A DNA stretch of 64,000 bases from Crossiella sp. SN42 (GTDB lineage Bacteria; Actinomycetota; Actinomycetes; Mycobacteriales; Pseudonocardiaceae). The position numbers were made by a program, and so were the translations under genes. The notes beneath the pieces are model-generated. The model saw only the letters and a list, made by a program, of their open reading frames with translations, ran no database searches and was not told the DNA's origin. Location: assembly GCF_023897065.1 (NCBI RefSeq), contig NZ_JAMHIV010000012.1:124001-188000 (forward strand), in the 5' to 3' direction. Shown piece by piece: positions 791 through 25,633 of this stretch (position 1 is its first letter; each line of letters begins with the position of its first letter).

Positions 791-791
791 G

Positions 792-8061: not shown

Positions 8062-8114
8062 ACCTCGCCCCGGCGACCGGGAGGTGTGCTGACTGTGCTG
8101 CTATCCGCGCGGCG

Positions 8115-8177: not shown

Positions 8178-8349
8178 CAGTGCTCCTCAGTTCCCCAGGC
8201 GGACGGGATGCCGCCACCGCGTCAAGCCAGTGCCGTATGAGCCAACGTTGGCCTTGTAGTGCCTCGGATCGAGGATGGCACAGGTCTCCTCGAACGCGAC
8301 GTCTGAAATCCGCCAGCATGCTCGCGGTCGGTCGGCCGAGAATCCGCTC

Positions 8350-8991: not shown

Positions 8992-9081
8992 CGCCGCATC
9001 AGCGCCCCTTGTGCTGTGCTGCGGTGAGGTGCCGTCCGGATTCCACTTCGGCGGCGCGCGCGTCCGGCAGGCTGTGCCGGT

Positions 9082-9308
9082 GTGGCAGAGCGCGTGCGTG
9101 GGATCGATGACGGCGAGGGCAGGCGGCTGCTGCGGATCATCCGTAGGGCACCGGGTCGGTGGTGACCTGGCGCCGGGCGCAGCTGGCGCTGTTGTCCGCA
9201 CAGGGCATACCCGTGGCGAAGACCGCCGAGGTGACGTTCACCGGCGCGGACCGGGTCCGGGATGTGATCCACAACTTCAACGCTGACGGCTTCGACTCAG
9301 GACACTAG
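9082..9308 (+). pseudogene. IS630-family transposase remnant (N-terminal HTH, frameshifted)
   Basis: Translation from GTG 9082 begins VAERVRGIDDGEGRRLLRII, then a one-base deletion near 9138 (AGGGCACC where AGGGGCACC would keep frame) moves the rest to another frame. That frame continues TGSVVTWRRAQLALLSAQG, then PVAKTAEVTFTGADRVRDVI and HNFNADGFDS, and stops at 9308. This is the well-known N-terminal helix-turn-helix of actinobacterial IS630-type transposases. The DDE catalytic domain is absent. Evidence is by remembered family similarity. It is a dead relic of an insertion, and no terminal inverted repeats could be assigned. Confidence 0.8.
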
Positions 9309-9318
9309 GTTCCAGCTC

Positions 9319-10473: not shown

Positions 10474-11420
10474 CCCACACCGTTCTGCAGCTGCTCCGCG
10501 ACCGCAAGCGCCAGGGCAGCACTCCCGGCCACCGCGAGGACAACGCCCGCCTGGCGCTCCTGATCGAGGGCGGCAGCTCGCGCGGCGCATACTCCAGCGG
10601 CATGACCGTGCCCATCGAACAACTGGGCCTGCTGCCGATGTTCGACGCCGTCTACGGCAGCTCAGCCGGTGCGCTCAACGCGGCCTGGCTGCTGTGCGGC
10701 CGCGCGGAAAGCACCATGCACGCCTGGTGGGACCCGGTGGTCATGGGCACCACCATCAGCCTCCGGCGGGCGCTGCGCCTGCGGCCCGTGGTGGACACCC
10801 GGTTCCTGGTGCACACCGTGTACACCCAGATCATGCCGATGGGGTTCCAGGAGATCCTGGACAACCCGGTGGAGTTCCACCCGATCGCCACCGACGCGCG
10901 CACCGGCCAGGCCGTCGACCTGCACCCGCGGCTCCGCGACCAGGCCGGCATCCAGGCCGCGCTGCGCGCCTCCACCGCGATGCCCATCCTCGCGGGCGAA
11001 CCGGTCGAGTTCGACGGGCGGTCGCTGGTCGACGCCGGGCTGAGCGAGGCCATCCCGGTGCGCACCGCGCTCGCGCAGGGGGCCACGCACATCCTCGCGC
11101 TGCGCACCCGGCGCGCGGACGAGACCTCCGCACCGCCCTCCCTCGGTGAGCGCCTGGTGGCCTCGCGCTGGTTCGCCCGGCACGCCCCAGGAGCCCTCGA
11201 TCCCTGGCTGCGCGGCAACCTCATCCGGGCGGAGGAGGAACGCCTGCTGGCCTCGCACCCCGCGACCCTGCAGATCCGGCCGCCGCTGGGCAGCGCGCGC
11301 ATCGGCCGCACCGAGCGCCGTCCGCACCTGCTGCGCGCCGCGGTCGACGCGGGACGGCGGGCGGCCATGGCCGAACTGGCGGGCTGCGTCGAGGAACCGC
11401 TGCCCGGTTCGCCAAGATGA
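10470..11420 (+). CDS. Patatin-like phospholipase (RssA/YjjU type)
   Basis: A 316-residue cytoplasmic protein starting at GTG 10470 behind AAAGGAAG. The anion-hole motif GGSSRGAYSSG, nucleophile Ser65 in GSSAG and Asp188 in VDAG form the Ser-Asp dyad of patatin hydrolases. Bacterial relatives hydrolyse phospholipid or acyl esters, but a specific substrate cannot be read. It is coupled to the MFS gene before it and overlaps the leader of the hydrolase after it, so the three genes are likely co-transcribed. Confidence 0.85.
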   Translation: MTHTVLQLLRDRKRQGSTPGHREDNARLALLIEGGSSRGAYSSGMTVPIEQLGLLPMFDAVYGSSAGALNAAWLLCGRAESTMHAWWDPVVMGTTISLRRALRLRPVVDTRFLVHTVYTQIMPMGFQEILDNPVEFHPIATDARTGQAVDLHPRLRDQAGIQAALRASTAMPILAGEPVEFDGRSLVDAGLSEAIPVRTALAQGATHILALRTRRADETSAPPSLGERLVASRWFARHAPGALDPWLRGNLIRAEEERLLASHPATLQIRPPLGSARIGRTERRPHLLRAAVDAGRRAAMAELAGCVEEPLPGSPR

Positions 11421-11443
11421 GGTCGACACCTCAGGAGGTCGCC

Positions 11444-12295
11444 ATGCCCGATCCCGCTCTTGGCACCAGCAAGACCGTCACCCTGCCCAGCGGCCAGCTC
11501 GCCTACACCGAGCGCGGCGACGGCAGGCCGGTGCTGTTCGTGCACGGCCTGCTGGTCAACGCCAACCTGTGGCGCAAGGTCGTGCCCGCCGTCGCGGAGG
11601 CCGGTTTCCGTTGTCTCGCACCGGACCTGCCGCTGGGCGCGCACCGGGTGCCGATGCCGGCTGAGGCCGACCTGACGCCGCCCGGCGTGGCCAGGCTGAT
11701 CGCGGAGTTCCTGGACGCGCTCGACCTGACCGAGGTCACCATCGTGGCCAACGACACCGGTGGCGCGCTCACCCAGATCCTGATGGCCAACCACCCGGAG
11801 CGGATCGGCCGGGTGGTGCTGACGCCGTGCGACGCGTTCGAGGTCTTCCTGCCCCAGCCCTTCACCCGGCTGCCCACCCTGGCCCGGCTGCCCGGCGCGA
11901 TCTGGATGGCCAGCCGACTGCTCCAGCTGCCGGTCCTGCGGCGGCTGCCGACCGCGTTCGGCTGGCTGAGCAAGCACGGCATCCCCGCCGAGGTCCTCGA
12001 CTCCTACCTGCGGCCCATCCGCGACAGCGCCGCGATCCGCCGCGACGCCAAGCGGTTCATCACCGGCATCCACCACCGGCACACCCTGGCCGCGGCCAAG
12101 GCGCTGCCCCGGTTCGACAAGCCGGTGCTGCTGGTCCGCGCGGCCGACGACCGGATCTTCAAGCCCCCGCTCTTCGACCGGCTCGCCGCGATCCTGCCGG
12201 ACGCGCGGCTGGTCACCGTGGACGACTCCGGCACCTTCGTCCCGGAGGACCAGCCCGCGGAGCTGGCCCGGTTGGTCGTCGAGTGGCAGCGGTGA
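11444..12295 (+). CDS. Alpha/beta hydrolase with Asp nucleophile and no catalytic His
   Basis: A 283-residue alpha/beta-fold protein. ATG 11444 is chosen because CAGGAGG lies just before it. FVHG gives the oxyanion hole. The nucleophile elbow is ANDTGGA with Asp104, as in haloalkane dehalogenases and epoxide hydrolases rather than Ser esterases. At the usual catalytic His the sequence reads SGTFVPEDQP, with Thr in place of His. It may be a non-hydrolytic member or use another residue. It is co-oriented with the MFS and patatin genes and convergent with arsC. Confidence 0.75.
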   Translation: MPDPALGTSKTVTLPSGQLAYTERGDGRPVLFVHGLLVNANLWRKVVPAVAEAGFRCLAPDLPLGAHRVPMPAEADLTPPGVARLIAEFLDALDLTEVTIVANDTGGALTQILMANHPERIGRVVLTPCDAFEVFLPQPFTRLPTLARLPGAIWMASRLLQLPVLRRLPTAFGWLSKHGIPAEVLDSYLRPIRDSAAIRRDAKRFITGIHHRHTLAAAKALPRFDKPVLLVRAADDRIFKPPLFDRLAAILPDARLVTVDDSGTFVPEDQPAELARLVVEWQR

Positions 12296-12301
12296 CCGGG
12301 G

Positions 12302-12712
12302 TCAGGCGGCAGGCGAGGTCAGCTCGGCCAGCAGCGCGGTGACGCGGCGGTCGATCTCGTCGCGGATCGGCCGGACGTGCTCGACGCCCTTGCCAGCCGG
12401 GTCGGCCAGCGCCCAGTCCAGGTAGCGCTTGCCGGGGAAGACCGGGCAGGCGTCGCCGCAGCCCATGGTGATCACCACGTCGGCGGCCCGGACGGCCTGC
12501 TCGGTCAGCGGTTTGGGGAACTCGCCGGAGAGGTCAAGGCCGAGCTCGGCCATGGCCTCGACCACCGCCGGGTTGACCGAGTCGGCCGGAGCCGAGCCCG
12601 CGGAGCGGACCGTGACCCGGCCCTGGGCGTGGTGGTGCAGCAGGGCGGCCGCCATCTGGGAGCGGCCCGCGTTGTGCACGCAGACGAAGAGCACCTCGGG
12701 CAGGTCGGACAC
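12302..12712 (-). CDS. arsC: Arsenate reductase, low-molecular-weight phosphatase fold
   Basis: A 136-residue enzyme starting at GTG 12712 behind AGGAG. The P-loop is C11-VHNAGRS, and two further cysteines (Cys85, Cys89 in MGCGDACP) fit a thioredoxin- or mycothiol-linked redox relay. It reduces arsenate to arsenite, which the adjacent ACR3 pump exports. It is the last gene of arsR-acr3-arsC. The open frame extends upstream into acr3 but the ribosome site and the fold both start here. Confidence 0.92.
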   Translation of the reverse strand: MSDLPEVLFVCVHNAGRSQMAAALLHHHAQGRVTVRSAGSAPADSVNPAVVEAMAELGLDLSGEFPKPLTEQAVRAADVVITMGCGDACPVFPGKRYLDWALADPAGKGVEHVRPIRDEIDRRVTALLAELTSPAA

Positions 12713-12720
12713 GACAGCTC

Positions 12721-13803
12721 CTAGTTCTTGACGGTGGTGCGCGGGTCTTCGGCGGTGAAGTGACGGCGGGCGCGCAGGGCGGCGTAGACCAGCGCGACCA
12801 GCACCGGCACCTCGATCAGCGGGCCGACCACCCCGGCCAGGGCCTGGCCGCTGGTGATGCCGAAGGTGGCGATCGCCACCGCGATGGCGAGCTCGAAGTT
12901 GTTGCCGGCCGCGGTGAACGCCAGTGTGGTGGTGCGTTCGTAGGACAGTCCGGCCGCCTTGCCGATGGCGAACGAGCCGAACCACATGAGCAGGAAGTAG
13001 GCCAGCAGCGGCAGCGCGATCCGGGCCACGTCCCACGGCCGGCTGGTGATCTGCCCGCCCTGCAAGGCGAAGAGCACCACGATGGTGAACAGCAGCCCGT
13101 ACAGCGCGAGCGGGCCGATGCGCGGCAGGAACCGGTTCTCGTACCAGTCCCGGCCCTTGGCGCGCTCGCCGAGGCGGCGGGTCAGGTACCCGGCCAGCAG
13201 CGGGATGCCGAGGAAGATCAGCACTGACCGGGCGATGGCCCAGCCGGAGACCGCCAGATCCGCTTGCGGCAGACCGAGCCAGCCGGGCAGCACGGTCAGG
13301 TAGAACCAGCCGAGCACACCGAAGGCGATCACCTGGAACACCGAGTTCAGCGCGACCAGCACCGCGGCGGCCTCGCGGTCCCCGCAGGCCAGGTCGTTCC
13401 AGATGATGACCATCGCGATGCACCTGGCCAGGCCCACGATGATCAGCCCGGTGCGGTACTCGGGCAGGTCCGGGAGCATCAGCCAGGCCAGCGTGAACAT
13501 CAGCGCCGGGCCGAGGATCCAGTTGAGCAGCAAGGAAAGCAGCAGCAGCCGCCGGTCGCCGGTGACGGTGTCCAGCCGGTCGTAGCGGACCTTGGCCAGC
13601 ACCGGGTACATCATCACCAGCAGCCCGAGCGCGATGGGCAGCGAGATGCCGTCGACCTGCACCGCGTCGATCGCCGCGCCCAGTCCGGGCAGGGCACGCC
13701 CCGCGCCGAGACCGAGCAGCATCGCGGCCAGGATCCACACCGGCAGGAACCGGTCCACAGTGGACAGTTTGCCCGGCACGCCGGGTCCGTCGGCGGCGCT
13801 CAC
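12721..13803 (-). CDS. acr3: Arsenite efflux permease, ACR3 family
   Basis: A 360-residue membrane protein with about ten spans. It carries the ACR3 marks GLARCIAMVIIWNDLACGD (conserved Cys for arsenite) and AGNNFELAIAVAIATFG (conserved Glu). It exports arsenite from the cytoplasm. Its start overlaps the arsR stop by four bases, and arsC follows after eight bases, so the three form an operon controlled by ArsR. Confidence 0.95.
   Translation of the reverse strand: MSAADGPGVPGKLSTVDRFLPVWILAAMLLGLGAGRALPGLGAAIDAVQVDGISLPIALGLLVMMYPVLAKVRYDRLDTVTGDRRLLLLSLLLNWILGPALMFTLAWLMLPDLPEYRTGLIIVGLARCIAMVIIWNDLACGDREAAAVLVALNSVFQVIAFGVLGWFYLTVLPGWLGLPQADLAVSGWAIARSVLIFLGIPLLAGYLTRRLGERAKGRDWYENRFLPRIGPLALYGLLFTIVVLFALQGGQITSRPWDVARIALPLLAYFLLMWFGSFAIGKAAGLSYERTTTLAFTAAGNNFELAIAVAIATFGITSGQALAGVVGPLIEVPVLVALVYAALRARRHFTAEDPRTTVKN
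13753..13765. repeat. 13-base palindromic word GTCCACAGTGGAC (copy 2)
   Basis: Exact copy inside the 5' part of acr3. Confidence 0.6.
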
Positions 13804-14165
13804 GCGGTGGCGGCCTGGGCCGGGGTCATCAGGACCGCGGACAGGGTCTGCAACATGCTCGGCCGCACCCGGTAGTAGATCCAGGTCCCGCGCCGCTCGC
13901 CGTCGATGACCCCGGCCTCCCGCAACACCTTCAGGTGGTGGGAGATGGTCGGCCCGGTCAGCTCGAAGGCGTCGGTCAGGTCGCAGACGCAGGCCTCACC
14001 GCCGGCATGGGAGGCGATCAGCGAGAGCAGGCGCAGCCGCACCGGGTCGCCGAGGGCCTTGAACACCCTGGCCAGCTCCGCCGACTGGCTCTCGGTCAGC
14101 GGCTCGCGCATCAGCGGCGAGCAGCACAGCGTCTCCTGTGCGATCACCGGCAGCTGTTTCGACAT
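13800..14165 (-). CDS. arsR: ArsR-family arsenic-responsive repressor
   Basis: A 121-residue winged-helix repressor (ALGDPVRLRLLSLI, TGPTISHHLKVLREAGVI, RRGTWIYYRV). Cys59 and Cys61 lie in ACVCDLT, the metal-box helix, and Cys14-Cys15 near the N-terminus may complete the As(III) site. It heads arsR-acr3-arsC and diverges from the ArsI-like gene; the 80-base gap holds a palindromic operator candidate. It should release DNA on binding arsenite or organoarsenicals. Confidence 0.93.
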   Translation of the reverse strand: MSKQLPVIAQETLCCSPLMREPLTESQSAELARVFKALGDPVRLRLLSLIASHAGGEACVCDLTDAFELTGPTISHHLKVLREAGVIDGERRGTWIYYRVRPSMLQTLSAVLMTPAQAATA

Positions 14166-14217
14166 ATCTCTATCTTGACAGACCTCTATCCAGACGGCAA
14201 TGTGGGCCCTGCTTGAT

Positions 14218-14231
14218 TAGATGAACATCTA
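14218..14231. promoter_or_regulatory. Probable ArsR operator
   Basis: A perfect inverted repeat TAGATG-AA-CATCTA in the gap between arsR and the arsI-like gene, right before the arsI ribosome site (AAGGAG). A related CTCTATC word occurs twice nearer arsR (about 14168 and 14184). A TTGACA hexamer at about 14174 may belong to the arsI promoter. Confidence 0.6.
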
Positions 14232-14245
14232 TCCAAGGAGACGTC

Positions 14246-14668
14246 ATGTCCCGTGTCCAGCTGGCCCTGCGAGTGTCCGACCTGGACGCCTCGATCGCCT
14301 TCTACACCAAGCTCTTCGGCGTCGAACCGGCCAAGCTCCGCCCCGGCTACGCCAACTTCGCCATCGCCGAGCCGCCGCTGAAGCTGGTGCTGCTGGAAGG
14401 CGAGCCGGACCAGGAGACCGCGCTGGACCACCTCGGCGTGGAGGTCGAGACCAGCGAGCAGGTCGACCGGGCCACCGAACGGCTGGCCTCCCTGGGCCTG
14501 TTCACCGCGGTGGAGAACGACACCACCTGTTGCTACGCGGTGCAGGACAAGGTGTGGGTGCACGGGCCGGGCCGGGAGCCGTGGGAGGTCTACGTGGTCA
14601 AGGAGGACTCGGCCGCCTTCGGCGAGGACGTCCCGCCCACGGTCCAGGCCGCGGCCTGCTGCAAGTGA
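14246..14668 (+). CDS. arsI: ArsI-like organoarsenical C-As lyase / CadI-like dioxygenase
   Basis: A 140-residue vicinal-oxygen-chelate protein. Gln5, His62 and Glu114 fit the ArsI Fe(II) triad, and adjacent Cys95-Cys96 in NDTTCCYAVQDKVWV match the trivalent-arsenic-binding pair. ArsI cleaves methyl- or phenylarsenite to arsenite. A C-terminal AACCK adds another Cys pair. It is divergent from arsR-acr3-arsC, so arsenite it releases could be pumped out by ACR3. CadI proteins share this fold, so a metal-sequestering role is an alternative. Confidence 0.85.
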   Translation: MSRVQLALRVSDLDASIAFYTKLFGVEPAKLRPGYANFAIAEPPLKLVLLEGEPDQETALDHLGVEVETSEQVDRATERLASLGLFTAVENDTTCCYAVQDKVWVHGPGREPWEVYVVKEDSAAFGEDVPPTVQAAACCK

Positions 14669-14693
14669 TCCTGCACCGTCGGCTGGGCTGAGC

Positions 14694-17600
14694 TCAGCTG
14701 GCCGCCGGCAGCGCGGACAGCGCGCGGGTCACCTCCGCCGCCTCCGGTGAGCCCAGCTCGGTGAGCAGGGCCACCGCCTGGCGGAGGTGGTCCGCGCCGC
14801 GCCCGGGGTCGCCGAGGTGGACCAGGCAGCGGCCCATGCCGGTCAGGGCGGCCGCGATCACGGCGCGGGCGCCGAGGCGGCGGCCCAGGTCGAGGGCCTG
14901 GCGGAACTCGCGCAGGGCCTCGGTGTGCCCTCCGGTGCTCAGGTGCAGGGTGGCCAGGCGGTGCCGGGCGATGGCGTGGCCGAGTGGCTCGTCGACCCCG
15001 GCGAAGGAGGTCAGCGCCTGGTCGAGATGGCGTTGTGCGGCAACGGGATCACCGGCTTGGCGGTGGCAGTCGCCGAGGTGGCTCAGCGTGCTGGCCTGGC
15101 CGAGCTGGTCGCCGAGCGCGCGGTAGCCCGCCAGCGCCTCGGTCAGCGCGGCCAGCGCCACCGGGAACTCACCGGCCTCGGTGCCCAGGTGGCCGATCGC
15201 GGCCAGCACGTGCGCCTGACCGAGCGGGTTGGCCAGCAGCCGGTAGCGGTGCCGGGCGTTGCACAGGTGGGCGGCGGCGCCGGGCAGGTCGCCGAGCTGG
15301 TGGCGCAGGATGCCCAGGTGCAGCTGGATGTGCGCCTGGCCGAGCGGGTTGCCCAGCAGGCGGTAGCGGCTCTGGGCATCGCGCAGGTGGGTGGTCGCGG
15401 TGTCGGGCGCGCCGGTGGTGGTGTCCAGCACGCCGAGCTCGGTGAGCACGCCGGCCTCGCCGCGCAGGTGGCCGAGCGCGCGGTAGCGGAGCAGCGCGTC
15501 GCCGAGGTCCCGGCGCGCGCCGGGGTGGTCGCCGGTCAGGCGCCGCAGCGTGCCGAGGTGGTGCAGGACGGCGGCGCGGGCGGGTTCGTCGCCGGTGTCC
15601 TCGGCCAGGGCCAGCGCCGCCTGGTGCAGGCTGATCGACCGGTGCCAGTGGCCGCGGCTGCGCAGGTACGGGTGCAGGGCGGTGGTGAGCGAGACGACCA
15701 GCGCGGGGTGCGCGCCGGCCGAGGGACAGGTGAGGCAGGCGAGGAGGTTGTCGGCTTCCCGGTCCAGCCAGGCCAGCGCGCCGGACTCGGTGTCCACCGC
15801 GGGGTCGTGGGCGAACCGGCAGGCCAGCGCGGGCACCGCCATCGGCGCGTCCGCGAACACCCTGGTGCTGATCAGCGCGGTGGCGTCCAGGTAGTACTCC
15901 AGCAGCCGGCCCGCCGCGGCTGCCCTCGGCGCCGGGTCGTCCTGTTCGGCCAGGGTGAGCGCGTACTCCTTGACCAGGTCGTGCAGCAGGTACCGGCCGG
16001 GCTCGGACTCGGTGAGCAGGTGGTCGTCGTAGAGCTGTTCGAGCTCCTGGCGGGTCTCCGGCACCTCCAGTCCGGCCAGTGCCGCGGTGGCGTGCACCTC
16101 GATCTCGTTGCCCGGCAACAGGGCCAGCGACCGGAACAGCCGCTGCTGCCCCTCGGTGAGGTTGCGGTAGGACAGCTCGAACGCCGCGGTCAGCGTGACG
16201 TTCTCCGCGTGCAGCTCCCCCAGCGTCATCCGCGAGGAGGCCAGCAGGTCCACCAGGTAGCGCAGTGTCCACCGTGGACGGTGCCGCAACCGCCCGGCCA
16301 GCAACGTGATCGCCAGCGGCAGCCGCCCGCACAGCGCGGTGAGCTCGGCCAGCGCCACCGGGTCGGGCTCCTGCTCCGGCCGGCCGGCCAGGCGCAGGAA
16401 CAGGGCGCGGGCCTCCTCGGCGGGTAGCGGGTGCAGCTCCACGGTCCGCAGGCATTCCAGCGCGGTCAGCCTGCGGCGGCTGGTGATCAGCACCAGGCAG
16501 CGGCCAGGACCGGGCAGCAGCGGGCGGAGCTGTTCGTGGCCGGTGGCGTCGTCGAGCACCAGCAGCAGCCGCTTCTCCCGCAGGCTGGCCTGCCACAGCG
16601 CGGCGCGGGCCGGCAGCCCGTCGGGGATCTCCGCGCCGGGCACGCCCACCGCGCGCAGCAGGTCGGCCAGCGCGTCCTCGGGAGCCACCGGCGGCCGGTC
16701 CGCGCTGAAGGCGCCCAGCCGCAGGTAGATCTGGCCGTCCGGGAAGTGCTCGGCCACCGCGCGGGCGGCGTGCACGGCCAGCGCGGTCTTGCCCACCCCC
16801 GGCATCCCGTCGATGGCGACGATCTCGCTGTCCTGCCGGTCCGGGTCGGCCGCGCCGGAGGCGGCCACGACGAGCTGCCCCAGCTCGGCGTCCCGGCCGG
16901 TGAAGGCGCGCACCGCGGCAGGCAGCTGCGCGGGCGTCACCGGAGCGGCCGCGGGTGGCGGGGCGGGCGCGACCCTGATCGCGGTGGGCGCGGGCGGGGG
17001 TGCCGGGTCCTCGGCCAGGATCCGCTGGTACAGCTCGCGCAGCCCGGTCCCGGGGTCGATGCCGAGCCGGTCGGCCAGCGTGGTGCGCGCGTCCTGGTAG
17101 GCCGAGAGCGCCTCGGCCCGCCTGCCCGAGCGGCACAGCGCGAGCATCAGCAGCTCGCGCGGGCGTTCGCGCAGCGGGTGAGCGCTTACCAGCGCGGTCA
17201 GCTCGGCCACCACCGCCGCGGGCTCACCGCGGGCCAGCAGCAGCTCGGCCCACAGCTCCTGCGCGATCAGCCTGCACTCGGCCAGCCGCAGCCGCCTGGT
17301 GTGCAGGTACGAGCCCTCCAGGCCGCTGCACGGGTCCCCGCGCCAGCGCCGCAGGGCCGACTCCACCGAGGTGGTCGCGGCGGCCAGGTTGCCGGCCCGC
17401 CGGTGCTCCCTGGCCGCGGCCAGCTCCTGCTCGAAGGCCAGCGCGTCCACCTGGGAGGCCTCGGCGCGCAGCAGGTAGCCGCCGTCGGTGCGCACCACCA
17501 GGTCGTCCCGGTCGGCCGAGGGGTCCGCGCGCAGCGCCCGGCGCAACCGGCTGATGTTGGTCTGCACGGTGTTGCGCACGCCCTGCGGCGGCGCCTCGCC

Positions 17601-17771
17601 CCACACCGCGTCGATCAGCGTGCACACCGGCACCGGGCGGTTCAGCTCCAGCAGCAGCACCGCCAGCACGGCCTGCTGCCGCGGCCAGCCCAGGTCGATC
17701 TGGTGCACGCCGCGCCAGGCCGCCACCGGTCCCAGCACGCCAAAGCGCAACTCGTGTTGCTGCGGCCCCAC
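14694..17771 (-). CDS. SARP/AfsR-type pathway regulator (wHTH-BTAD-NB-ARC-TPR)
   Basis: About 1025 residues from GTG 17771; the frame is open to 17969, and the start is placed where the regulator fold begins (LRFGVLGPVAAWRG). Domain order is winged helix (about 1-95), BTAD (about 100-245), a P-loop NTPase (DGMPGVGKTALAVHAAR, then LLLVLDDA, LVLITSRR) and a long tract of tetratricopeptide repeats to the end. This is the layout of large Streptomyces antibiotic regulatory proteins. It diverges from the lanthipeptide precursor across a 270-base gap with 11-base direct repeats, so it very likely activates the lan operon. Confidence 0.9.
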   Translation of the reverse strand: MGPQQHELRFGVLGPVAAWRGVHQIDLGWPRQQAVLAVLLLELNRPVPVCTLIDAVWGEAPPQGVRNTVQTNISRLRRALRADPSADRDDLVVRTDGGYLLRAEASQVDALAFEQELAAAREHRRAGNLAAATTSVESALRRWRGDPCSGLEGSYLHTRRLRLAECRLIAQELWAELLLARGEPAAVVAELTALVSAHPLRERPRELLMLALCRSGRRAEALSAYQDARTTLADRLGIDPGTGLRELYQRILAEDPAPPPAPTAIRVAPAPPPAAAPVTPAQLPAAVRAFTGRDAELGQLVVAASGAADPDRQDSEIVAIDGMPGVGKTALAVHAARAVAEHFPDGQIYLRLGAFSADRPPVAPEDALADLLRAVGVPGAEIPDGLPARAALWQASLREKRLLLVLDDATGHEQLRPLLPGPGRCLVLITSRRRLTALECLRTVELHPLPAEEARALFLRLAGRPEQEPDPVALAELTALCGRLPLAITLLAGRLRHRPRWTLRYLVDLLASSRMTLGELHAENVTLTAAFELSYRNLTEGQQRLFRSLALLPGNEIEVHATAALAGLEVPETRQELEQLYDDHLLTESEPGRYLLHDLVKEYALTLAEQDDPAPRAAAAGRLLEYYLDATALISTRVFADAPMAVPALACRFAHDPAVDTESGALAWLDREADNLLACLTCPSAGAHPALVVSLTTALHPYLRSRGHWHRSISLHQAALALAEDTGDEPARAAVLHHLGTLRRLTGDHPGARRDLGDALLRYRALGHLRGEAGVLTELGVLDTTTGAPDTATTHLRDAQSRYRLLGNPLGQAHIQLHLGILRHQLGDLPGAAAHLCNARHRYRLLANPLGQAHVLAAIGHLGTEAGEFPVALAALTEALAGYRALGDQLGQASTLSHLGDCHRQAGDPVAAQRHLDQALTSFAGVDEPLGHAIARHRLATLHLSTGGHTEALREFRQALDLGRRLGARAVIAAALTGMGRCLVHLGDPGRGADHLRQAVALLTELGSPEAAEVTRALSALPAAS

Positions 17772-18042
17772 AGCCCACCCCCAAGACGGCACAGCCACTC
17801 CCCAGATCGTGACCGCGGTCGCGCCCACGGTAGCCGCAGGAACACGGATCGTGCAGCCCCTGGCGGAACAAGGGGCTTGAACTGGACGGCCAGCCCGGTG
17901 ACAGCGCTCTGACAGCGCTGTGTACGCGACCGTCAGCACCGTGTACGCGCCGCGACTTACGTTGGCCACGGCGATGCGAAATCGCAGTCAATCCGCACCG
18001 GTCCATTCCGGCCGGTGAATTCTCCGAAAGGAAAAGGCGAAC
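17772..18042. promoter_or_regulatory. Divergent control region between SARP regulator and lanthipeptide precursor
   Basis: About 270 bases without a gene. It holds the direct-repeat array (listed separately), a -10-like TTACGT at about 17957 placed some eight bases after the last repeat, a small hairpin GCGAT/ATCGC (about 17971-17985), and the precursor ribosome site AAAGGAAAAGG. Confidence 0.6.
17899..17949 (+). promoter_or_regulatory. 11-base direct repeats, probable SARP binding array
   Basis: Two adjacent 11-base units TGACAGCGCTC (17899-17909) and TGACAGCGCTG (17910-17920) are followed by TGTACGCG at 17921 and again at 17942, embedded in CAGCGCTGTGTACGCG (17913) and CAGCACCGTGTACGCG (17934), 21 bases apart. 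SARP proteins are known to bind direct repeats with 11- or 22-base period just upstream of the -10 region. Confidence 0.65.
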
Positions 18043-18219
18043 ATGGACGCATTTGATCTGGACGTCAGAATCACCACTCCCGCGGGTGCCGACGGCGCGG
18101 CCGGGCCGCTGTCCATCATCAGCAGGCTGACCTGCTCGCGCACCCCGGTCTGTTCCAAGACCACGTGCCAGTGCAGCCGGACCTGCACCCCGCTCTGCAC
18201 CGCGGGCCGCATGCGCTGA
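18043..18219 (+). CDS. lanA: FxLD-type class I lanthipeptide precursor peptide
   Basis: A 58-residue ORF starting at ATG 18043 behind AAAGGA, directly upstream of lanC and lanB. Residues 4-8 read FDLDV, the leader motif recognised by class I LanB/LanC enzymes and the hallmark of the FxLD lanthipeptide family. The leader is acidic and Gly/Ala-rich (to about residue 28). The C-terminal part is rich in Thr, Ser and Cys with six Cys at 31, 37, 42, 44, 48 and 52. Two T-P-x-C motifs (34-37 TPVC and 49-52 TPLC) resemble ring B of nisin (TPGC). The core is basic (Arg33, Lys39, Arg46, Arg56, Arg58). Mature product, cleavage site and ring pattern are predictions. Confidence 0.9.
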   Translation: MDAFDLDVRITTPAGADGAAGPLSIISRLTCSRTPVCSKTTCQCSRTCTPLCTAGRMR

Positions 18220-18225
18220 GCAAGA

Positions 18226-18260
18226 GGGTGCTGCCGTGTGTGGAAGACACGGCAGCACCC
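18226..18260 (+). terminator. Hairpin between lanA and lanC (partial terminator)
   Basis: A perfect 14-base inverted repeat GGGTGCTGCCGTGT (18226-18239) and its complement (18247-18260) with a seven-base loop, starting seven bases after the precursor stop. Such hairpins after lanthipeptide precursor genes let most transcripts stop or be stabilised there, giving more precursor than enzyme. Confidence 0.8.
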
Positions 18261-18303
18261 GCTCGGCAAAATACCGCATTCGCCACAAGAAAAGGGGGCA
18301 TTC

Positions 18304-19674
18304 GTGCGCCAGTTGTCCGAACACGCCTCGGCAGGCCCGAGCGCCCCGACGTCCGCCTGGCACGGCTCGCTGCCGGGCGCGCTGGCGCGCCGGGCCACCG
18401 CGACCGCGCTGGAGGTCGCGCGCCGCAGCGCCGACCCCGAGACGGTCATCGACCTGGTGATGGCCGCGGCCGAGCAGGCAGTCCACCCCAACGGCTGGTC
18501 CTATCCCGGCTTCGCGCACGGGCACGCCGGCCTCGCGCTGCTGCACGTGCTCGCCGCCGAGGCGGAGCCGGACGGACCGGACCGCCGCGCCGCGCTGGAC
18601 ACCGCGTTCACCTACATCCGCGAGGCGGTCGCCGGGACCGCGGGCACCCCGCTGGCCGAGCCTGGGCTGCTCTCGGGCACCAGCGGCCTGGCGCTGGCCC
18701 TGGCCGCCTGCACGCACGCCGAGGAGCGGTTCGGCCCGAGCCTGGACCGGCTGCACGAGAAGCTGGCCGCGCAGGTCATGGACCTGCCGCTGCCCACGGT
18801 CGAGCGCGGGGTCAGCGACTCCGACTACGACATGGTCAGCGGCGCCGCGGGCACCCTGTCCTACCTGTGCGGCATCGACTCGCCCAGCCCCGCCGTGCGC
18901 GCGGCGGCCGAGCGGCTCCTCGACTACCTGGTGTGGCTCGGCGAGCCGCCGCGCGACCTGTCGCTGACCCGCCGCTGGCTGATCAGCCCCGAGCTCTGCC
19001 GGGGCGAGCGCGACCATCCGCACGGCCACCTCAACGTGGGCCTGGCGCACGGCATCCCCGGCCCACTGGCCGCGCTGGCCACCGCCTGGCTGGCGGGCTA
19101 CCGGCGGCCGGGTCAGGAGGCCGCGCTGCGCGGGGTGCTGGAGTGGGTGCTGGCGATCCGGCGTGCCGACGGCCACGGCCCGGTGTGGCCGAGCGAGGTG
19201 CCCATCGACGAGTCCGGCGCCGAGCTCCGGCCCAGTGCGCCACTGGACCAGATCGCCTGGTGCTACGGCACCGCGGGGGTGGCCGTCGCGCTGCTCCCGG
19301 TGGCCGAGGCGCTGGGCGAGGAGTCGCTGCGCGCGCTGGCCGTGTCCTCCTTCGAGGCCGTGCTGCGCCGCCTGCCCGAGCGCCCGAGCTTCTCCCCCAC
19401 CTTCTGCCACGGCCTGGCCGGGGTGCTGGTGCTGTGCCTGGAGTTCGCCGCGCACGGCAGCGCGCCGGCCGCCGCCGAGGCGTCCCGGCTGGTGGAGCTG
19501 CTGGTGGCGCAGGCCGATCCGGAGCTGCCGCTGCTCTTCCGCGACGAGGAGGAGCGCGACGTCTTCGTGGACAGCCCTTCCCTGCTCTCCGGTTCGACCG
19601 GGATCGCGCTGGCCCTGCTCGCCGCGACCGCGCCGCGCCGTCCGTCCTGGTTCCGCGCCTTCCTCACGAGGTGA
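18304..19674 (+). CDS. lanC: Lanthionine cyclase LanC
   Basis: A 456-residue protein, GTG 18304 behind AAGGGGG. It has the LanC toroid repeats GHAGLAL, SGTSGLALAL, SGAAGTLSYL, GLAHGIPGPLA and SGSTGIALALL. The zinc ligands Cys320 (WCYG), Cys368 and His369 (FCHG) are intact. It adds precursor cysteines to dehydroalanine/dehydrobutyrine to close (methyl)lanthionine rings. It lies between lanA and lanB, seven bases before lanB. The open frame extends to 18238 through the hairpin, which is not plausible coding. Confidence 0.93.
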   Translation: MRQLSEHASAGPSAPTSAWHGSLPGALARRATATALEVARRSADPETVIDLVMAAAEQAVHPNGWSYPGFAHGHAGLALLHVLAAEAEPDGPDRRAALDTAFTYIREAVAGTAGTPLAEPGLLSGTSGLALALAACTHAEERFGPSLDRLHEKLAAQVMDLPLPTVERGVSDSDYDMVSGAAGTLSYLCGIDSPSPAVRAAAERLLDYLVWLGEPPRDLSLTRRWLISPELCRGERDHPHGHLNVGLAHGIPGPLAALATAWLAGYRRPGQEAALRGVLEWVLAIRRADGHGPVWPSEVPIDESGAELRPSAPLDQIAWCYGTAGVAVALLPVAEALGEESLRALAVSSFEAVLRRLPERPSFSPTFCHGLAGVLVLCLEFAAHGSAPAAAEASRLVELLVAQADPELPLLFRDEEERDVFVDSPSLLSGSTGIALALLAATAPRRPSWFRAFLTR

Positions 19675-19681
19675 GTGCCCG

Positions 19682-22600
19682 ATGATCGAGTCCCGTTACC
19701 GCGTGAGCGAGTTCTACCTGATCCGCACGCCCGCCCTGCCCGCGGAGACCTTCCGCGAGCTGCTGGCCGGCGAGGGTGACGACGAGCGGCGCCGTGCCGA
19801 GGCCCTGGCCCGGCTGCGCGCGCTGGCCCAGACCCCGCTGGTGCGCCGCGCGCTGGCCGTGGCCAGCAACGACCTGGTGGACGCGCTGGACCGGCTGGAC
19901 GCCGACGGCGGCGGCAAGAAGAGCAAGCGGGTGCACTCCCGGCTGCTGCGCTACCTGACCAGGATGTCCACCCGGCCCACCCCCTTCGGCGCCTTCTCCG
20001 GGATCGCGCTCGGTGAGTTCGCCGAGCGGACCACGCTGGAGCTCGGCGCGCCCGCGGTGCACCGGGGCCGGGTGCGTGCCGACATGGGCTGGCTGCTGGC
20101 GCTGATCAAAGATCTCGAACAGGACCCGGCGCTGCGCCCGCACCTGCGGCTGGTCCGCAACGCCGGCGCGCACCTGCGTGGCGACCGGCTGGTGCTGCCC
20201 TACGCCGACATCTACGGCCGGGCGGACAACCGCAGCGTGCGGGTGCGGGCCACCGCCGCGGTCACCGCGGTGCTGCGCATGGCCGCCACCCCGACCCCGG
20301 CCGAACAGCTCGTCGACGAGCTGGCCCAGGGGTTCCCCGAGGTGCCGAGGGACCGGGTCGCCGGGCTGGTGGAACAGTTGCGGGAGCTCAACTTCCTCAT
20401 CAGCGACCTGCGCCCGCCGCAGTCCAGCCCGTTCCCGGAACAGCACGTGGCCAAGCGGCTCACCGGGATCGAGGCGGCCGGGCCGGCCACCGAGGCGCTG
20501 CGCGAGATCATCGAGTTGGTGCACCGGGCCTCCGCCGAGCCGGGCACCGAGCCGTTGCGCGAGCTGCGGGCCGCCCAGCAGGCACTGGTGCCCGGCCACC
20601 AGAGTGACACCTTCCAGCTGGACTCCGCGCTGGACCTGCGCGGGGCCGGGCTCAGTCACGCGGTCGGCGCGGCCGTGGCCGACGCGGTGGACTGCCTGAT
20701 GCGCCTGGCCGCCGCGCTGCCCGGCCACAACCACCACCTGGTGCAGTACCGGGAGGCCTTCACCGAGCGCTACGGCGACCACGCCCTGGTCCCGGTGCTG
20801 GAGGTGCTCAGCCCGGACACCGGCCTGGACGCGCCGTACAACTACCTCGAACCGCCGCGCTCGCACCCGGTGCCGAACAACACCCCCGAACCGTCCACAG
20901 CGGACTACGACCTGCTGCTGACCGAGTTCGCCAGCCAGGCCTGGTGCGCCGGCGAGACCTCGGTGGAGCTCACCGACGCCTGGCTGGACCGGATCGCCCC
21001 GGCCGAGGCCAAGCCCCCGCTCGGCCTCTACCCGGCCCTGGACGCCTACGCGCAGCTCCAGCTCACCGACCCGGACGGCCGGATCGACGACGGGCAGTGG
21101 CGGCTGGTGCTGCGCGAGCTCAGCCTGGCCTACGGCGGGCGCACCACCGGGCGCTTCTTCGACCTGCTCGGCGAGGACGCGCTGGGCCACCTTGGCGAGC
21201 ACGCGCGGCGGGTGCGCGCGCTGCAACCCGAGGCGGTGCACGCGGAGCTGTGCTTCCTGCCCACCTCGGGGCGGGCGGCGAACGTGGCGTTCCGGCCGCT
21301 GCTGCACGAGTACGAGGTGCCGGTCAACGCCACCCCCTCGGCGCGGCCCGAGCGCACCATCAGCCTGGCCGACCTGCACGTGGGCGTGGCCGGGAACCGG
21401 TTCTACCTGTGGTCGCGGACCCTGGGCCGCGAGGTCGTGGTCACCCAGGGGCACATGCTCGGCCCGCACCTGGCGCCCAACGCGGCCCGGTTCGTGCTGG
21501 AGGTCTCCCAGGACGGCTACGCCATGCCCACCGGATTCCGTTGGGGCCCCTTGGAGAACCTGTCCTTCCTGCCCAGGGTCACCCGGGGCAGCGTGGTGCT
21601 GCGGCCCGCGCAGTGGACCCTGCGCGCCACGGACCTCACCGGCGACTTCGGCGCCGCGTTCGCCGCCTGGCGGCAGCGGTGGCGGGTGCCGCGCTACGTC
21701 TACCTGGTCGATGAGGACAACCGGCTGCTGCTGGACCTGGAGCACCCGCTCGGCCTGGACGAGCTGGCCGGGCAGCTCGGCGGCGAGCACGGCCCGGCGG
21801 TGCTGCACGAGATGCTGCCCGCCTTCGACGACCTGTGGCTGTCCGATGTGGACGGTGCGCGGTACCTGGAGGAGATCGTGGTGCCGCTGGTGGCGCACTC
21901 CGCCGAGGACACCGCGCGCAGCCCGGTGCCGCTCTCCGGCAGGCTGGAGACCATCGCCGAGGTCGGCGCCAGCCGCAGCCTGCGGCGGCGGCACCTGCCC
22001 GGCGAGGAATGGGCCTACCTCAAGCTGTACTCCGCCTTCAGCAGGCACGACGAGATCATCGCCGGACCGCTGCGCGCGCACATCGCCGCGCTGCGCGAAC
22101 AGGGCCTGATCGACCGCTGGTTCTACCTCCGCTACGCCGATCCGCAGCCACACCTGCGCATCCGCTGCCGGGCCGCCGAAGCGGGCGCGGCCACCGAGGT
22201 GCTGCGCCAGCTGATGGCCTGGGGTCGCGGGCTGGTCGAGGCGGACCTGGCCTTCGACACCGCGGTCGCGACCTACCTGCCGGAGATCGAGCGCTACGGC
22301 GGGCCGCGGACCTTCGAGCCGGTGGAGGACCTGTTCACGGTCAACAGCGACACCACCGTCGAGCTGGTCGCGCTGCTGCAACAGGAGGAACCCAAGCTGC
22401 GCCCGGAGTTCGTCGCGATCGCCACGGTGGACGCGCTGTACCGGCAGTGGGGCCTGGCCCCGCAGGAGCGCCCGGCGCTGATCCCGCCGGTGGCCGAGTC
22501 CGAGGCGGTGCGCAAGGAGTTCCAGGCCAACCGCGACTACCTCGGTGAACTGCTGCTGCCGTGGGACTTCCGGCCGCACGAGGAAGGCCGCGCGCACCAC

Positions 22601-22849
22601 GAGCTGATCAACGGCCTGCTCGCCCCACAGGCCGGGGCGGTGGCTGCGGCGGCACAGGCGGTCCGCACCGCGGTCGCGGCGGAGACGTTGTGGGGCAACG
22701 AGTTCAGCGTGCTCGGCAGCCTGGCGCACATGCAGATCAACCGGTTGATGCCGGTGGACCTGCCCAGGGAGTCGGAATGCTACGCGCTGTGGCGGCACGT
22801 CCTGCGCGCCGTCGGCGGCCGTCCGGCACACCTGCGAGGGGATTCCTGA
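19682..22849 (+). CDS. lanB: Full-length class I lanthipeptide dehydratase LanB
   Basis: A 1055-residue protein starting at ATG 19682 after GAGGTGAG. The N-terminal glutamylation domain shows the conserved RPTPFGAFSG (98-107) after a basic SKRVHSRLLRYLTRMST stretch. The C-terminal elimination domain (about 770-1050) shows EEWAYLKLYSAF and WFYLRYADPQPHLRIRC. Having both in one chain is the true LanB form, unlike split thiopeptide enzymes. It uses glutamyl-tRNA(Glu) to glutamylate Ser/Thr of the precursor and then eliminates glutamate to give Dha/Dhb. Two bases separate it from the transporter gene. Confidence 0.95.
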   Translation: MIESRYRVSEFYLIRTPALPAETFRELLAGEGDDERRRAEALARLRALAQTPLVRRALAVASNDLVDALDRLDADGGGKKSKRVHSRLLRYLTRMSTRPTPFGAFSGIALGEFAERTTLELGAPAVHRGRVRADMGWLLALIKDLEQDPALRPHLRLVRNAGAHLRGDRLVLPYADIYGRADNRSVRVRATAAVTAVLRMAATPTPAEQLVDELAQGFPEVPRDRVAGLVEQLRELNFLISDLRPPQSSPFPEQHVAKRLTGIEAAGPATEALREIIELVHRASAEPGTEPLRELRAAQQALVPGHQSDTFQLDSALDLRGAGLSHAVGAAVADAVDCLMRLAAALPGHNHHLVQYREAFTERYGDHALVPVLEVLSPDTGLDAPYNYLEPPRSHPVPNNTPEPSTADYDLLLTEFASQAWCAGETSVELTDAWLDRIAPAEAKPPLGLYPALDAYAQLQLTDPDGRIDDGQWRLVLRELSLAYGGRTTGRFFDLLGEDALGHLGEHARRVRALQPEAVHAELCFLPTSGRAANVAFRPLLHEYEVPVNATPSARPERTISLADLHVGVAGNRFYLWSRTLGREVVVTQGHMLGPHLAPNAARFVLEVSQDGYAMPTGFRWGPLENLSFLPRVTRGSVVLRPAQWTLRATDLTGDFGAAFAAWRQRWRVPRYVYLVDEDNRLLLDLEHPLGLDELAGQLGGEHGPAVLHEMLPAFDDLWLSDVDGARYLEEIVVPLVAHSAEDTARSPVPLSGRLETIAEVGASRSLRRRHLPGEEWAYLKLYSAFSRHDEIIAGPLRAHIAALREQGLIDRWFYLRYADPQPHLRIRCRAAEAGAATEVLRQLMAWGRGLVEADLAFDTAVATYLPEIERYGGPRTFEPVEDLFTVNSDTTVELVALLQQEEPKLRPEFVAIATVDALYRQWGLAPQERPALIPPVAESEAVRKEFQANRDYLGELLLPWDFRPHEEGRAHHELINGLLAPQAGAVAAAAQAVRTAVAAETLWGNEFSVLGSLAHMQINRLMPVDLPRESECYALWRHVLRAVGGRPAHLRGDS

Positions 22850-22850
22850 G

Positions 22851-24677
22851 ATGGCGAAGAGGTTGCGGGACAACGACTGGCTGCGCATCGCGGCGATGCT
22901 GTGGCGGTTGAGCCCGGTGCGGGTGAGCGCGCTGATCCTGGTCACCGTGGCGGTGTCGGTGGTGCCCGCGGTGCAGCTCCAGCTCACCGCGAGCGCGGTG
23001 CAGTCGGTGGCCGACGCGGTCACCACCGGCAGCACCGAGGGCCTCACCGGGCAGGTGTTGTTCGTGGGCCTGCTGATCGTGGCGGTCAGCGTGGCCGCGC
23101 ACCTGTCCGGGGTGTGGCACCAGTACCTGGACGCGGTGCTGCGGCTGCACCTGGCCACCGCGGTCGGTGAGCAGGTGATGTGCAAGGGCACCCGGATGGA
23201 CCTGCAGGACTACGAGAACGCCGACTCCTACGACAAGCTGCAACGGGCCTTCCAGGAGAGCAGCGGCTCCAACATCCACCAACTGTTCGCCGACACGCTT
23301 TCCACCGCCCGCGAGCTGATCACCATCGTGTCGGTCTCCGCGGTGCTGTTCTCCTGGCACCCGTGGATCGCGCTGCTGATCCTGCTGGCGCCGGTGCCCT
23401 CCGCGCTGGCGCAGATGTGGTACGGCAAGAAGATGTACGAGATCGAGTACGAGCGGGCCGCGGACCGGCGGCGGCTGTTGTACTTCCAGTACCTCACCAC
23501 CACCGACCACTCCTTCAAGGAAGTCCGGCTGTTCCAGCTCGGCGACTTCTTCATCGGCCGGTACCGGGAGCTCGTGCACCGCTTCCTCAAGGTGGACCGC
23601 TCGATCAACCGCAGGCAGTCGGTCGCCTTCGGGCTGCTCGGCCTGATCAGCGTGCTGGCCTCCGGCGCGGCGCTGATCTACGCGATGCTGACCACCATGG
23701 GCTCCGGCCAGATCGGCCAGCTGGCAGGCTACCTCCAGGCCATCGGCGTGGTGCAGGCCTCCGGGCAGGCGCTGCTGGTCGGGCTGGCGATGCTGTTCCA
23801 GAACAAGCTGTTCGTCAGCAACCTGTTCGAGCTCTTCGACCTGCCGGAGCGGCAGATCGGCGGTGGCAGCAGGCCCTTCCCCGCGCGGCTGAGCCGGGGC
23901 ATCGAGTTCCGCGAGGTCAGCTTCACCTACCCCGGCACCAGCGAACGCGTGCTGGACCGGGTCAGCTTCACCATGCCCGCGGGCGAGTGCGTGGCGCTGG
24001 TGGGGCAGAACGGCGCGGGCAAGACCACCCTGGTGAAGCTGCTGACCCGGCTCTACGAACCCACCGCCGGGCAGATCCTCATCGACGGGGTGCCGATCCA
24101 GGAGTACGACCTGGATGACCTGCGCCGCAACATGGGCGTCATCTTCCAGGACTACATCCGCTACGAGATGAGCGTGCGGCACAACATCGGTTTTGGCGCG
24201 GTGGAACACCTCCAGGACACCGACCGGGTCCGCAAGGCCGCCATCGCCAGCGGCGCGGACACCGTGGTCGAGGGGCTCGGCGGCGGCTACGACGCCATGC
24301 TGGGCCGCCACTTCGCCGAGGGCAGCCAGCTCTCCGGCGGGCAGTGGCAGAAGGTCGCGCTGGCCAGGGCGTTCATGCGGGGCGCGCCGGTGGTGGTGCT
24401 GGACGAGCCGACCGCGGCCATCGACGCCGAGGCCGAGGCGGAGATCTTCGGCCGGTTCCGCACCATCGCGCGCACCTCGACCAGCCTGCTGGTGGCGCAC
24501 CGCTTCTCCACCGTCCGGATCGCCGACCGGATCATCGTGATCGAGGGCGGCAGGCTGATCGAGCAGGGCACGCACGCGGAGCTGATGCGCCGGGACGGGC
24601 ACTACGCCTACCTGTTCAACCTGCAGGCCGCCGGGTACCAGCCGGAGCCGGACGCCGAGGCGGTCGGCCCGGCATGA
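22851..24677 (+). CDS. lanT: ABC transporter, fused membrane and ATPase domains (LanT-like, no protease domain)
   Basis: A 608-residue half-transporter: membrane domain (about 1-330), then ATPase with VGQNGAGKTTLVKLL, VIFQDY, LSGGQWQKVALARAF, VVVLDEPTAAID and VAHRFST. There is no N-terminal C39 peptidase domain, so it cannot cut the leader. It probably dimerises in the cytoplasmic membrane and exports the modified peptide. ATG 22851 follows GAGGGG. It overlaps the next gene by four bases. Some similar actinomycete ABC proteins act in immunity, which is an alternative. Confidence 0.88.
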   Translation: MAKRLRDNDWLRIAAMLWRLSPVRVSALILVTVAVSVVPAVQLQLTASAVQSVADAVTTGSTEGLTGQVLFVGLLIVAVSVAAHLSGVWHQYLDAVLRLHLATAVGEQVMCKGTRMDLQDYENADSYDKLQRAFQESSGSNIHQLFADTLSTARELITIVSVSAVLFSWHPWIALLILLAPVPSALAQMWYGKKMYEIEYERAADRRRLLYFQYLTTTDHSFKEVRLFQLGDFFIGRYRELVHRFLKVDRSINRRQSVAFGLLGLISVLASGAALIYAMLTTMGSGQIGQLAGYLQAIGVVQASGQALLVGLAMLFQNKLFVSNLFELFDLPERQIGGGSRPFPARLSRGIEFREVSFTYPGTSERVLDRVSFTMPAGECVALVGQNGAGKTTLVKLLTRLYEPTAGQILIDGVPIQEYDLDDLRRNMGVIFQDYIRYEMSVRHNIGFGAVEHLQDTDRVRKAAIASGADTVVEGLGGGYDAMLGRHFAEGSQLSGGQWQKVALARAFMRGAPVVVLDEPTAAIDAEAEAEIFGRFRTIARTSTSLLVAHRFSTVRIADRIIVIEGGRLIEQGTHAELMRRDGHYAYLFNLQAAGYQPEPDAEAVGPA

Positions 24678-25633
24678 AGGTCTCGCTGATGGTGCCGGTG
24701 ATGCCGCACGAGCCCGAGCACCTGCCCGCCTATGCCGAGCTGGTCAGGGACCGCGGGGCGCACCGGCTGTGGCAGGGCCAGTCGCTGGCGCTGGAGACCT
24801 TCCAGGGCTTCGCCTACCTGGCCGGGCGCGGGCTGCGGGTGCCGGTGGGCACCAGCGTCACCCTCACCGCGCTGCGGCATCCCTACGAGGCGGCGTTACA
24901 GGCCCGGTCGCTGGCCAGGCTCACCGGGCACGACCTGGTGCTGGGCCTGGGCACCGGCACGCCGGAGCTGGTGGCCTCGCTGCGCGGGCGGCCCTACGGC
25001 AGTCCGCTGACCGCGGCCCGCGACCAGCTCACCATCCTGCGCGGCCTGCTGGACGGCAAACCCGTGCAGCACGAGGGCCGCTACGACACCATGCTGGGCG
25101 GGCTGCCCGAGTTCGCGCATCCCGCTGTCTCCCTTGGCCTCGGCGTGCTGCGACCCGGCATGGCCAGGGTGGCCGGGGAGCTGGCCGAGGTCGCGATCAC
25201 CTGGCTCACCCCGCCGTGCTACCTGCGCGAGGTGCTGCTGCCGGAACTGCGCGCCGCGGCCGGGGCGGCGGGCAGGCCGGTGCCGAGGGTGGTGACGGTG
25301 GTGCAGGTCGCGGTGGCCCGGCCCGGCCGCGATCCGCACCTGCTCGCGCTGAACGGCTCGCGCGAGCACCTGGCCGCGCCGCACTACACCGACATGCTGC
25401 GGCGGGCCGGGCTGCGCGTGCACCCGGCGCAGGTCGCGCTGAGCGCCCGCGCGCTGGTGCGCGCCGGGGTCTTCCTGACCGGCACGGTCGCCGAGATCGC
25501 CGAGGGACTGGCGGAGTACCGGGCGGCCGGGGTGGACGAGGTGGTGCTCAACACCGCGGGGGTGCACCTGACCGAAGGCCGCGCCGCCGCCCTGGACGAC
25601 CTCGCCGAACTGCTGGCCGCCCGGCCCGGCTGA
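24674..25633 (+). CDS. Luciferase-like flavin/F420-dependent enzyme, possible LanJ_C-type reductase
   Basis: A 319-residue TIM-barrel protein of the luciferase-like monooxygenase superfamily (ALRHPYEAALQARSLARLTG, LVLGLGTGTPE, YGSPLTAARDQLTILRGLLDG, AGVDEVVLN). Its ATG overlaps the transporter stop, so it belongs to the lan operon. In lexapeptide biosynthesis a member of this superfamily (LxmJ, LanJ_C type) uses reduced F420 to reduce dehydroalanine to D-alanine. That role is attractive here because the precursor has more Ser/Thr than Cys. A monooxygenase acting on the peptide is the alternative. Confidence 0.8.
   Translation: MKVSLMVPVMPHEPEHLPAYAELVRDRGAHRLWQGQSLALETFQGFAYLAGRGLRVPVGTSVTLTALRHPYEAALQARSLARLTGHDLVLGLGTGTPELVASLRGRPYGSPLTAARDQLTILRGLLDGKPVQHEGRYDTMLGGLPEFAHPAVSLGLGVLRPGMARVAGELAEVAITWLTPPCYLREVLLPELRAAAGAAGRPVPRVVTVVQVAVARPGRDPHLLALNGSREHLAAPHYTDMLRRAGLRVHPAQVALSARALVRAGVFLTGTVAEIAEGLAEYRAAGVDEVVLNTAGVHLTEGRAAALDDLAELLAARPG

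Follow-up and report, generated by a model that had tools for sequence, protein, structure and literature searches.

Does the short open reading frame upstream of a lanC-lanB-transporter run in Crossiella sp. SN42 encode a genuine lanthipeptide precursor, and what would the neighbouring enzymes make of its product? We analyzed this frame within a 64,000-nt stretch of the genome (hereafter the window). It opens with an ATG at 18043 on the forward strand and its stop codon ends at 18219. The 58-aa product, MDAFDLDVRITTPAGADGAAGPLSIISRLTCSRTPVCSKTTCQCSRTCTPLCTAGRMR, carries FDLD at residues 4–7, cysteines at 31, 37, 42, 44, 48 and 52, and two TPxC motifs, TPVC at 34–37 and TPLC at 49–52. This is what the first-pass annotation had described, and the gene order it gave also stands, as lanC begins 84 nt downstream of the frame and is followed by lanB and an ABC transporter gene. 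The NCBIfam model NF038155 (FDLD family class I lanthipeptide) matched residues 2–34 with 27.8 bits against a cut-off of 20, and it was the sole NCBIfam family reported at E-values up to 1. The NCBI FxLD family, TIGR04363, gave no match in that search, and membership of it was rejected for this reason. In Pfam only Gallidermin appeared, at a sub-threshold 10.3 bits against a cut-off of 21, and a comparison of the precursor with PDB chains gave no match up to an E-value of 1. The FxLD family is associated with an FxLD-system methyltransferase, and no methyltransferase is present among the five genes of 18043–25633, so the gene expected of an FxLD system is missing there. Hence the earlier label ‘FxLD lanthipeptide’ holds for the motif and, through the NF038155 match, for a class I precursor, but not for the NCBI family of that name. 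Because the NF038155 score exceeds its cut-off, orthologues and paralogues exist in the genus, and dN/dS over the whole ORF lies between 0.09 and 0.36 (six pairs of four window-type sequences), the frame, which we call lanA, is better explained as a gene than as a chance ORF. Judged by its sequence, it is very likely a genuine class I lanthipeptide precursor gene.

The locus recurs in the genus. Ten such cassettes were found in the five Crossiella genomes searched (5/5), with three in the window's own genome, two each in three others and one in the last. Their layout is compact: lanA, lanC, lanB and the genes for the ABC exporter and the LLM oxidoreductase run in this order, and a SARP-type regulator gene diverges from them. 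All six genes were matched in 9/9 of the other stretches, and in five of these the regulator match spans ∼60% of the protein. The window type accounts for four precursors (91–100% identity), with orthologues in three other genomes of the genus at 91–93%. The remaining six, five of a C1 type and one of a third type on contig C34 of the window's genome, are 62–65% identical to the window's peptide, and paralogues at this level are present in all five genomes. The precursor alignment and profile have nine rows, since the tenth sequence is identical to one row and was left out; two of the nine are identical to each other. A separate observation concerns the sole cassette in G002, where LanB (G002:C1:8813606-8816638; L111, L019) contains one in-frame TGA and may be broken or misread.

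The core of the peptide is less constrained than the leader. Among window-type pairs, the leader showed 0–1 non-synonymous against 3–9 synonymous changes, and the core 4–8.5 non-synonymous against 1.8–6 synonymous changes, the former equalling or exceeding the latter in most pairs, although non-synonymous sites are ∼3 times as many. The core of the L005–L004 pair had 8 against 3. Invariant in the nine rows are FDLD, T12-P13-A14, P22-L23-S24-I25, C31, T34-P35, C37, S38, T41-C42, C44, C52, T53 and G55, and four residues before C31 there is a Ser or Thr in 9/9 rows. Paralogues have a different C-terminal part. At residue 56 the window encodes Arg (CGC), whereas G004, a genome of the same species, has Cys (TGC), two others have Ser (AGC) and the five paralogue rows have Cys; from this distribution, the window's strain may have lost a terminal ring. 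The six cysteines reported earlier are thus right for the window but are not a fixed trait, as the same-species genome (L005) has seven.

Proline at position -2 is usual in class I leaders (12 of the 16 in Table 2 of PMC3930743), and hence we predict a cut after about L23, giving a leader of residues 1–23 and a core of residues 24–58 (35 residues). The predicted core has six Lys/Arg and no Asp/Glu side chains, in agreement with the cationic product proposed before. It could lose up to 12 waters, with computed neutral monoisotopic masses of 3819.83 for the linear form, 3711.77 after 6 losses and 3603.70 after 12. Spacing would allow rings S27-C31, T34-C37, S38-C42, T41-C44, S45-C48 and T49-C52 as one possible set, and the polycyclic product that had been suggested is accordingly likely in its general form, with a pattern of rings that is only predicted. 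The echo of nisin ring B seen in the two TPxC motifs survived in part: TP[VIL]C is kept, but the second TPxC occurs only in the window-type group (4/9 aligned rows), and the lipid II motif of nisin and gallidermin, SxxxCTP(G/S)C (PMC7268733), is found in 0/9 precursor rows. The rows have two residues between the first Cys and TP, and V, I or L in place of G/S. A nisin-type lipid II motif in the core was therefore rejected.

A profile search gave no clear relatives of the precursor in 385 other genomes of the family or 393 other genomes of the class (best E-values 2.1e-4 and 4.0e-4). In this search 13–16 first-look candidates were scored per genome, so that a divergent relative could escape; the two samples overlap (G023 and G256 are in both). 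A separate search of the family, cut at E 0.001, passed over the window's own copy, which scores 0.00101. The best weak outside matches, in genus g9, cover the leader part and have different cores. Among the genomes searched, the precursor thus appears confined to Crossiella. NF038155 itself matches in 20 of 390 family genomes, the five Crossiella included, and the cores outside Crossiella, for example CTPGCTSxGGGSxCSxCC at six loci, are plainly different. Such cores are presumably of the planosporicin/microbisporicin type. The leader of lanA matches the FDLD model above cut-off, whereas its core lacks CTPGC...CSxCC, is longer, and has six Cys with a TCxC in the middle. The view that the core resembles no known one was borne out against the other NF038155 cores compared, and by this comparison the core is new and belongs to a multi-copy cassette. 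Two further observations were made with this model. G002:C1:3234439-3234528 (L047) is a further ORF that resembles a class I precursor; it contains FDID and CTPGC...CTACCC and adjoins a LanB match at G002:C1:3231166-3234207. In genus g9 the FDLD-model matches stand in tandem, four in G085:C1:3111728-3112500, four in G086:C246:37479-38225 and three in G087:C33:403994-404571, with short and varied cores.

The genes after lanA, all on the forward strand, fit a class I pathway. The lanC gene (18304..19674) encodes a 456-aa cyclase (PF05147, 2e-44) with WCYG at 319 and CHG at 368, both of which align with NisC and with the LanC of PDB 8byk. The zinc ligands of LanC enzymes are Cys and Cys-His. The lanB gene (19682..22849) encodes a full-length dehydratase of 1055 aa with glutamylation and elimination domains (PF04738, 4.7e-160; PF14028, 5.4e-51). 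Nine catalytic residues of LanB are listed for MadB (PMC12241602), and eight of them align in our protein (phmmer, counted by eye); the ninth, His1016, was aligned only via a weak, low-scoring MibB segment. A LanT-like ABC exporter follows (22851..24677; PF00005, 4.5e-35; PF00664, 1.9e-7), with no C39 peptidase domain among its matches, and neither a LanP nor an immunity gene is present among the five genes of 18043–25633. Together with lanA, these genes give the locus what defines a class I (LanBC) system at the gene level, namely an FxLD-type leader with a Ser/Thr/Cys-rich core, a two-domain LanB and a stand-alone LanC. At the start of the window (18–5535), the N-termini of ORFs look by eye as if they belonged to a further secondary-metabolite cluster, with genes of acyl-carrier, adenylation and ABC permease type.

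The fifth gene (24674..25633, forward strand), whose start overlaps the stop codon of the exporter (ATGA), encodes an LLM-class F420-type oxidoreductase (PF00296, 5.7e-29), a candidate LanJC, and is present in 10/10 cassettes. Here the first-pass annotation was incomplete, as it mentioned neither this LanJC-like reductase nor the paralogous copies of the cassette, the box that they share or the hairpin. The top NCBIfam match of the enzyme was TIGR03564 (F420_MSMEG_4879) with 122 bits, below the cut-off of 234, and a class V-linked LLM paralogue in the window's genome (G000:C25) scored 111 bits with the same model, also below 234. Its nine PDB matches comprise six methylenetetrahydromethanopterin reductases (three of them named F420-dependent), one F420-dependent Fgd1 and two FMNH2-dependent alkanesulfonate monooxygenases, and because the last two depend on FMNH2, F420 is a putative cofactor here. 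CofH of F420 synthesis is encoded in the window's genome (519 bits, cut-off 374), a cut-off that 3 of 14 control genomes pass.

We then considered the genomic company of related LLM enzymes. Relatives outside the cassettes were collected with an E-value limit of 1e-60, scoring no more than five candidates in each genome, which gave 14 loci in 390 family genomes and 22 more in 389 class genomes, 36 loci in all. Dehydroalanine-forming enzymes lie within ∼7 kb of 26 of them. Twenty of the 36 neighbourhoods are of class V type (LxmK and HopA1 within ∼7 kb; family models identified LxmK in L121 and L134 and HopA1 in L121, L126 and L132, and tblastn the rest), 4/36 have LanM (TIGR03897) and 1/36 LanKC genes within the same distance, and in L131 the relative stands with split Lant_dehydr_N and Lant_dehydr_C, YcaO and SagB genes, a thiopeptide-type set. 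The other ten have no such enzyme within 7 kb: four have LanKC 7.6–8.9 kb away and six have none recognised, and two of the ten (L167 and L174) sit <3 kb from a contig end. No full-length LanB was found beside the 36 outside relatives by a query that recovered five known LanB control loci. In an unrooted tree, the ten cassette enzymes form one clade (99/98).

Some of these neighbourhoods are worth describing for themselves. The genome of the window carries L121 (G000:C25:85800-102800), a class V-type cluster with LxmK (NF038156), HopA1, an LLM paralogue of 56% identity and two M16 peptidase-like genes. In L131 (G093:C49:302300-319300), the relative is 49% identical and lies by the split dehydratase, the SagB dehydrogenase and YcaO (8072–16612), and it may also reduce dehydroalanine. 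In L122, L124, L126 and L127, LxmK, HopA1 and the LLM gene adjoin a daptide RiPP recognition protein (NF041823 in L122; tblastn, 57–65% in the others), and these are possible mixed clusters.

LanJC enzymes are known from class II, class V, massatide and daptide clusters (PMC8068269, PMC7268733, PMC11162475, PMC10036551). As in LxmJ of the class V lexapeptide, Cao12 of cacaoidin, the class II birimositide LLM, MatR1/MatR2 of massatide and the daptide LanJC, an LLM-class F420-type enzyme here stands beside dehydroalanine formers, whereas the partners in Crossiella are a full-length LanB and a LanC, that is, class I enzymes. LxmJ and Cao12 are described as carrying an MSMEG_4879-family domain, and LxmJ converts Dha28 to D-Ala28 but does not act on the Dhb that arises when the Ser is replaced by Thr (PMC8068269). 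On our best reading, the Crossiella enzyme looks like a LanJC acting in a class I pathway, and it is set beside LxmJ and Cao12 by their published domain description. From the reductase gene, D-alanine would be predicted in the product. The best candidate position is S24, because it is the only invariant Ser that the proposed ring set does not use; the mature peptide would begin with it, whereas a cut made elsewhere would place it in the leader.

Upstream of lanA and divergent from it lies a gene for an AfsR-like SARP regulator with HTH, BTAD, NB-ARC and TPR domains (14694..17771, reverse strand; Pfam BTAD, 2.9e-37, with NB-ARC and TPR), for which we propose a GTG start at 17771 in a frame open to 17969. 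It was matched in frame beside 9/9 other cassettes with 58–96% identity, although for five cassettes the match is limited to some 606–626 of the 1031 residues used, and PADLOC gave a TPR match only. The best-kept block of the upstream alignment is a 19-bp box, TGACAGCGCTGTGTACGCG, at 17910..17928 on the forward strand, a candidate activator site found upstream of all ten cassette precursors. Allowing ≤2 mismatches, it has ten matches in the five Crossiella genomes, 10/10 upstream of a cassette precursor and none elsewhere; the backwards pattern had one match in the five genomes, and 0.02 matches would be expected in the window at ≤3 mismatches. It is likely that the SARP regulator reads this box. 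A SARP heptamer repeat of 11-bp spacing was tried and dropped: the window has an exact TGACAGC pair (12/500 shuffles were as good), and since the other nine cassettes have at least one mismatch we claim the 19-bp box only.

Between lanA and lanC, the transcript could fold into a hairpin with a 14-bp stem and a 7-nt loop (18226..18260, forward strand; -35 kcal/mol for 18220–18270, z -6.3, 0/200 shuffles). The other cassettes (9/9) have a similar stem, 86–100% complementary, with a 7-nt loop, and in L017 and L018 one T-A pair is replaced by G-C with both sides changed. Rfam gave no match at gathering score. No U-run follows the hairpin, thus a plain intrinsic terminator is unlikely, and our guess is a role in processing or attenuation that favours lanA mRNA.

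Taken together, we consider it probable that lanA belongs to a Crossiella class I cassette whose peptide receives rings from LanB and LanC and D-alanine from a LanJC, under control of the SARP regulator and the box. In this pathway, the SARP-type activator would act through its private 19-bp box, and LanB would bind the FDLD leader, glutamylate Ser/Thr and eliminate to give Dha and Dhb, after which LanC would close thioether rings. The LLM enzyme, as LanJC, would use F420H2 to reduce one or more Dha residues to D-Ala, with S24 as the best candidate site. The ABC protein would export the peptide, and a protease encoded elsewhere would cut it after about L23, with Pro at -2 as in nisin; any bioactivity of the mature peptide is likewise a prediction. 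For the more specific claim of a natural LanBC lanthipeptide with D-alanine made by an F420H2-dependent LanJC akin to the class V-type ones, possibly at Ser24 (residue 1), where the reduction would spare an exposed N-terminal Dha from loss to hydrolysis, and with up to three co-regulated paralogous products per genome, we see the balance as even.

The reductase is the point on which the main rival turns. The class I precursor could be real and the LLM enzyme could serve some other redox tailoring or a task outside the pathway, in which case the product would be a plain LanBC peptide that lacks D-Ala. In favour of this, the LLM superfamily is a broad one, the enzyme scores below the TIGR03564 cut-off, two FMNH2-dependent enzymes are among its PDB matches, its likeness to LxmJ is known by description, and ten of the 36 relatives lack a dehydroalanine former within 7 kb. 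However, the gene accompanies every one of the ten cassettes and overlaps the exporter stop codon, a dehydroalanine-forming enzyme lies near 26 of the 36 relatives, and the cassette enzymes are a single clade among those relatives (99/98, unrooted tree). We regard such another role as rather unlikely on this evidence. A LanJC acting with LanB and LanC is the reading that we prefer.

Nisin and gallidermin share with lanA a predicted 23-residue leader, FxLD, Pro at -2 and the SxxxC and TPxC spacing, and the Crossiella LanB and LanC are homologous to NisB and NisC. S27xxxC31 and T34PVC37 are spaced like rings A and B of nisin and lie in a basic core, which could suggest a lantibiotic of nisin type whose rings A and B bind lipid II. 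We find this improbable, because the published lipid II motif (PMC7268733) occurs in none of the nine rows and the five operon genes include no immunity gene. The cassette differs from nisin and gallidermin also in its SARP-type regulator and its extra LanJC-like gene. Nisin is regulated by a two-component system. From the mere 58 codons of the ORF in a GC-rich genome, and from the Arg that replaces Cys56 of the same-species genome, one could argue that the frame is open by chance or that the gene is dead. This is contradicted by the above-threshold family match, the orthologues and paralogues in the genus, the dN/dS of 0.09–0.36 and the ten linked cassettes, so that we rejected a chance ORF at 18043–18219 and give either form of this idea hardly any credence.

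The open-access PMC text that our searches brought up contains no report of this peptide, or of a LanJC in a characterised natural class I pathway. A 2024 account places LanJ D-residues primarily in class II and in one class V lanthipeptide (PMC11519912). D-Ala has already been engineered into nisin by co-expressing the class II LtnJA with NisBTC (PMC10373908), and together with the LLM enzyme beside the split LanB-type dehydratase of L131, a locus that suits a dehydroalanine reductase and lowers the novelty slightly, this tempers the claim that the pairing is new. Class I clusters contain other reductase families (PMC7268733), hence a class I-LanJC pairing may already stand in survey tables. 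antiSMASH analysis of a Crossiella genome gave class I, III and V lanthipeptide clusters (PMC9415966), the class I cluster being 91–94% similar to Amycolatopsis marina; the available text of that paper does not equate it with this cassette.

If our reading is true, Crossiella would join natural LanB/LanC ring formation with F420H2-dependent formation of a D-residue. Moreover, the ten natural cassettes, which have the box and the hairpin in common, lend themselves to comparisons of ring pattern and of the substrate choice of the reductase.
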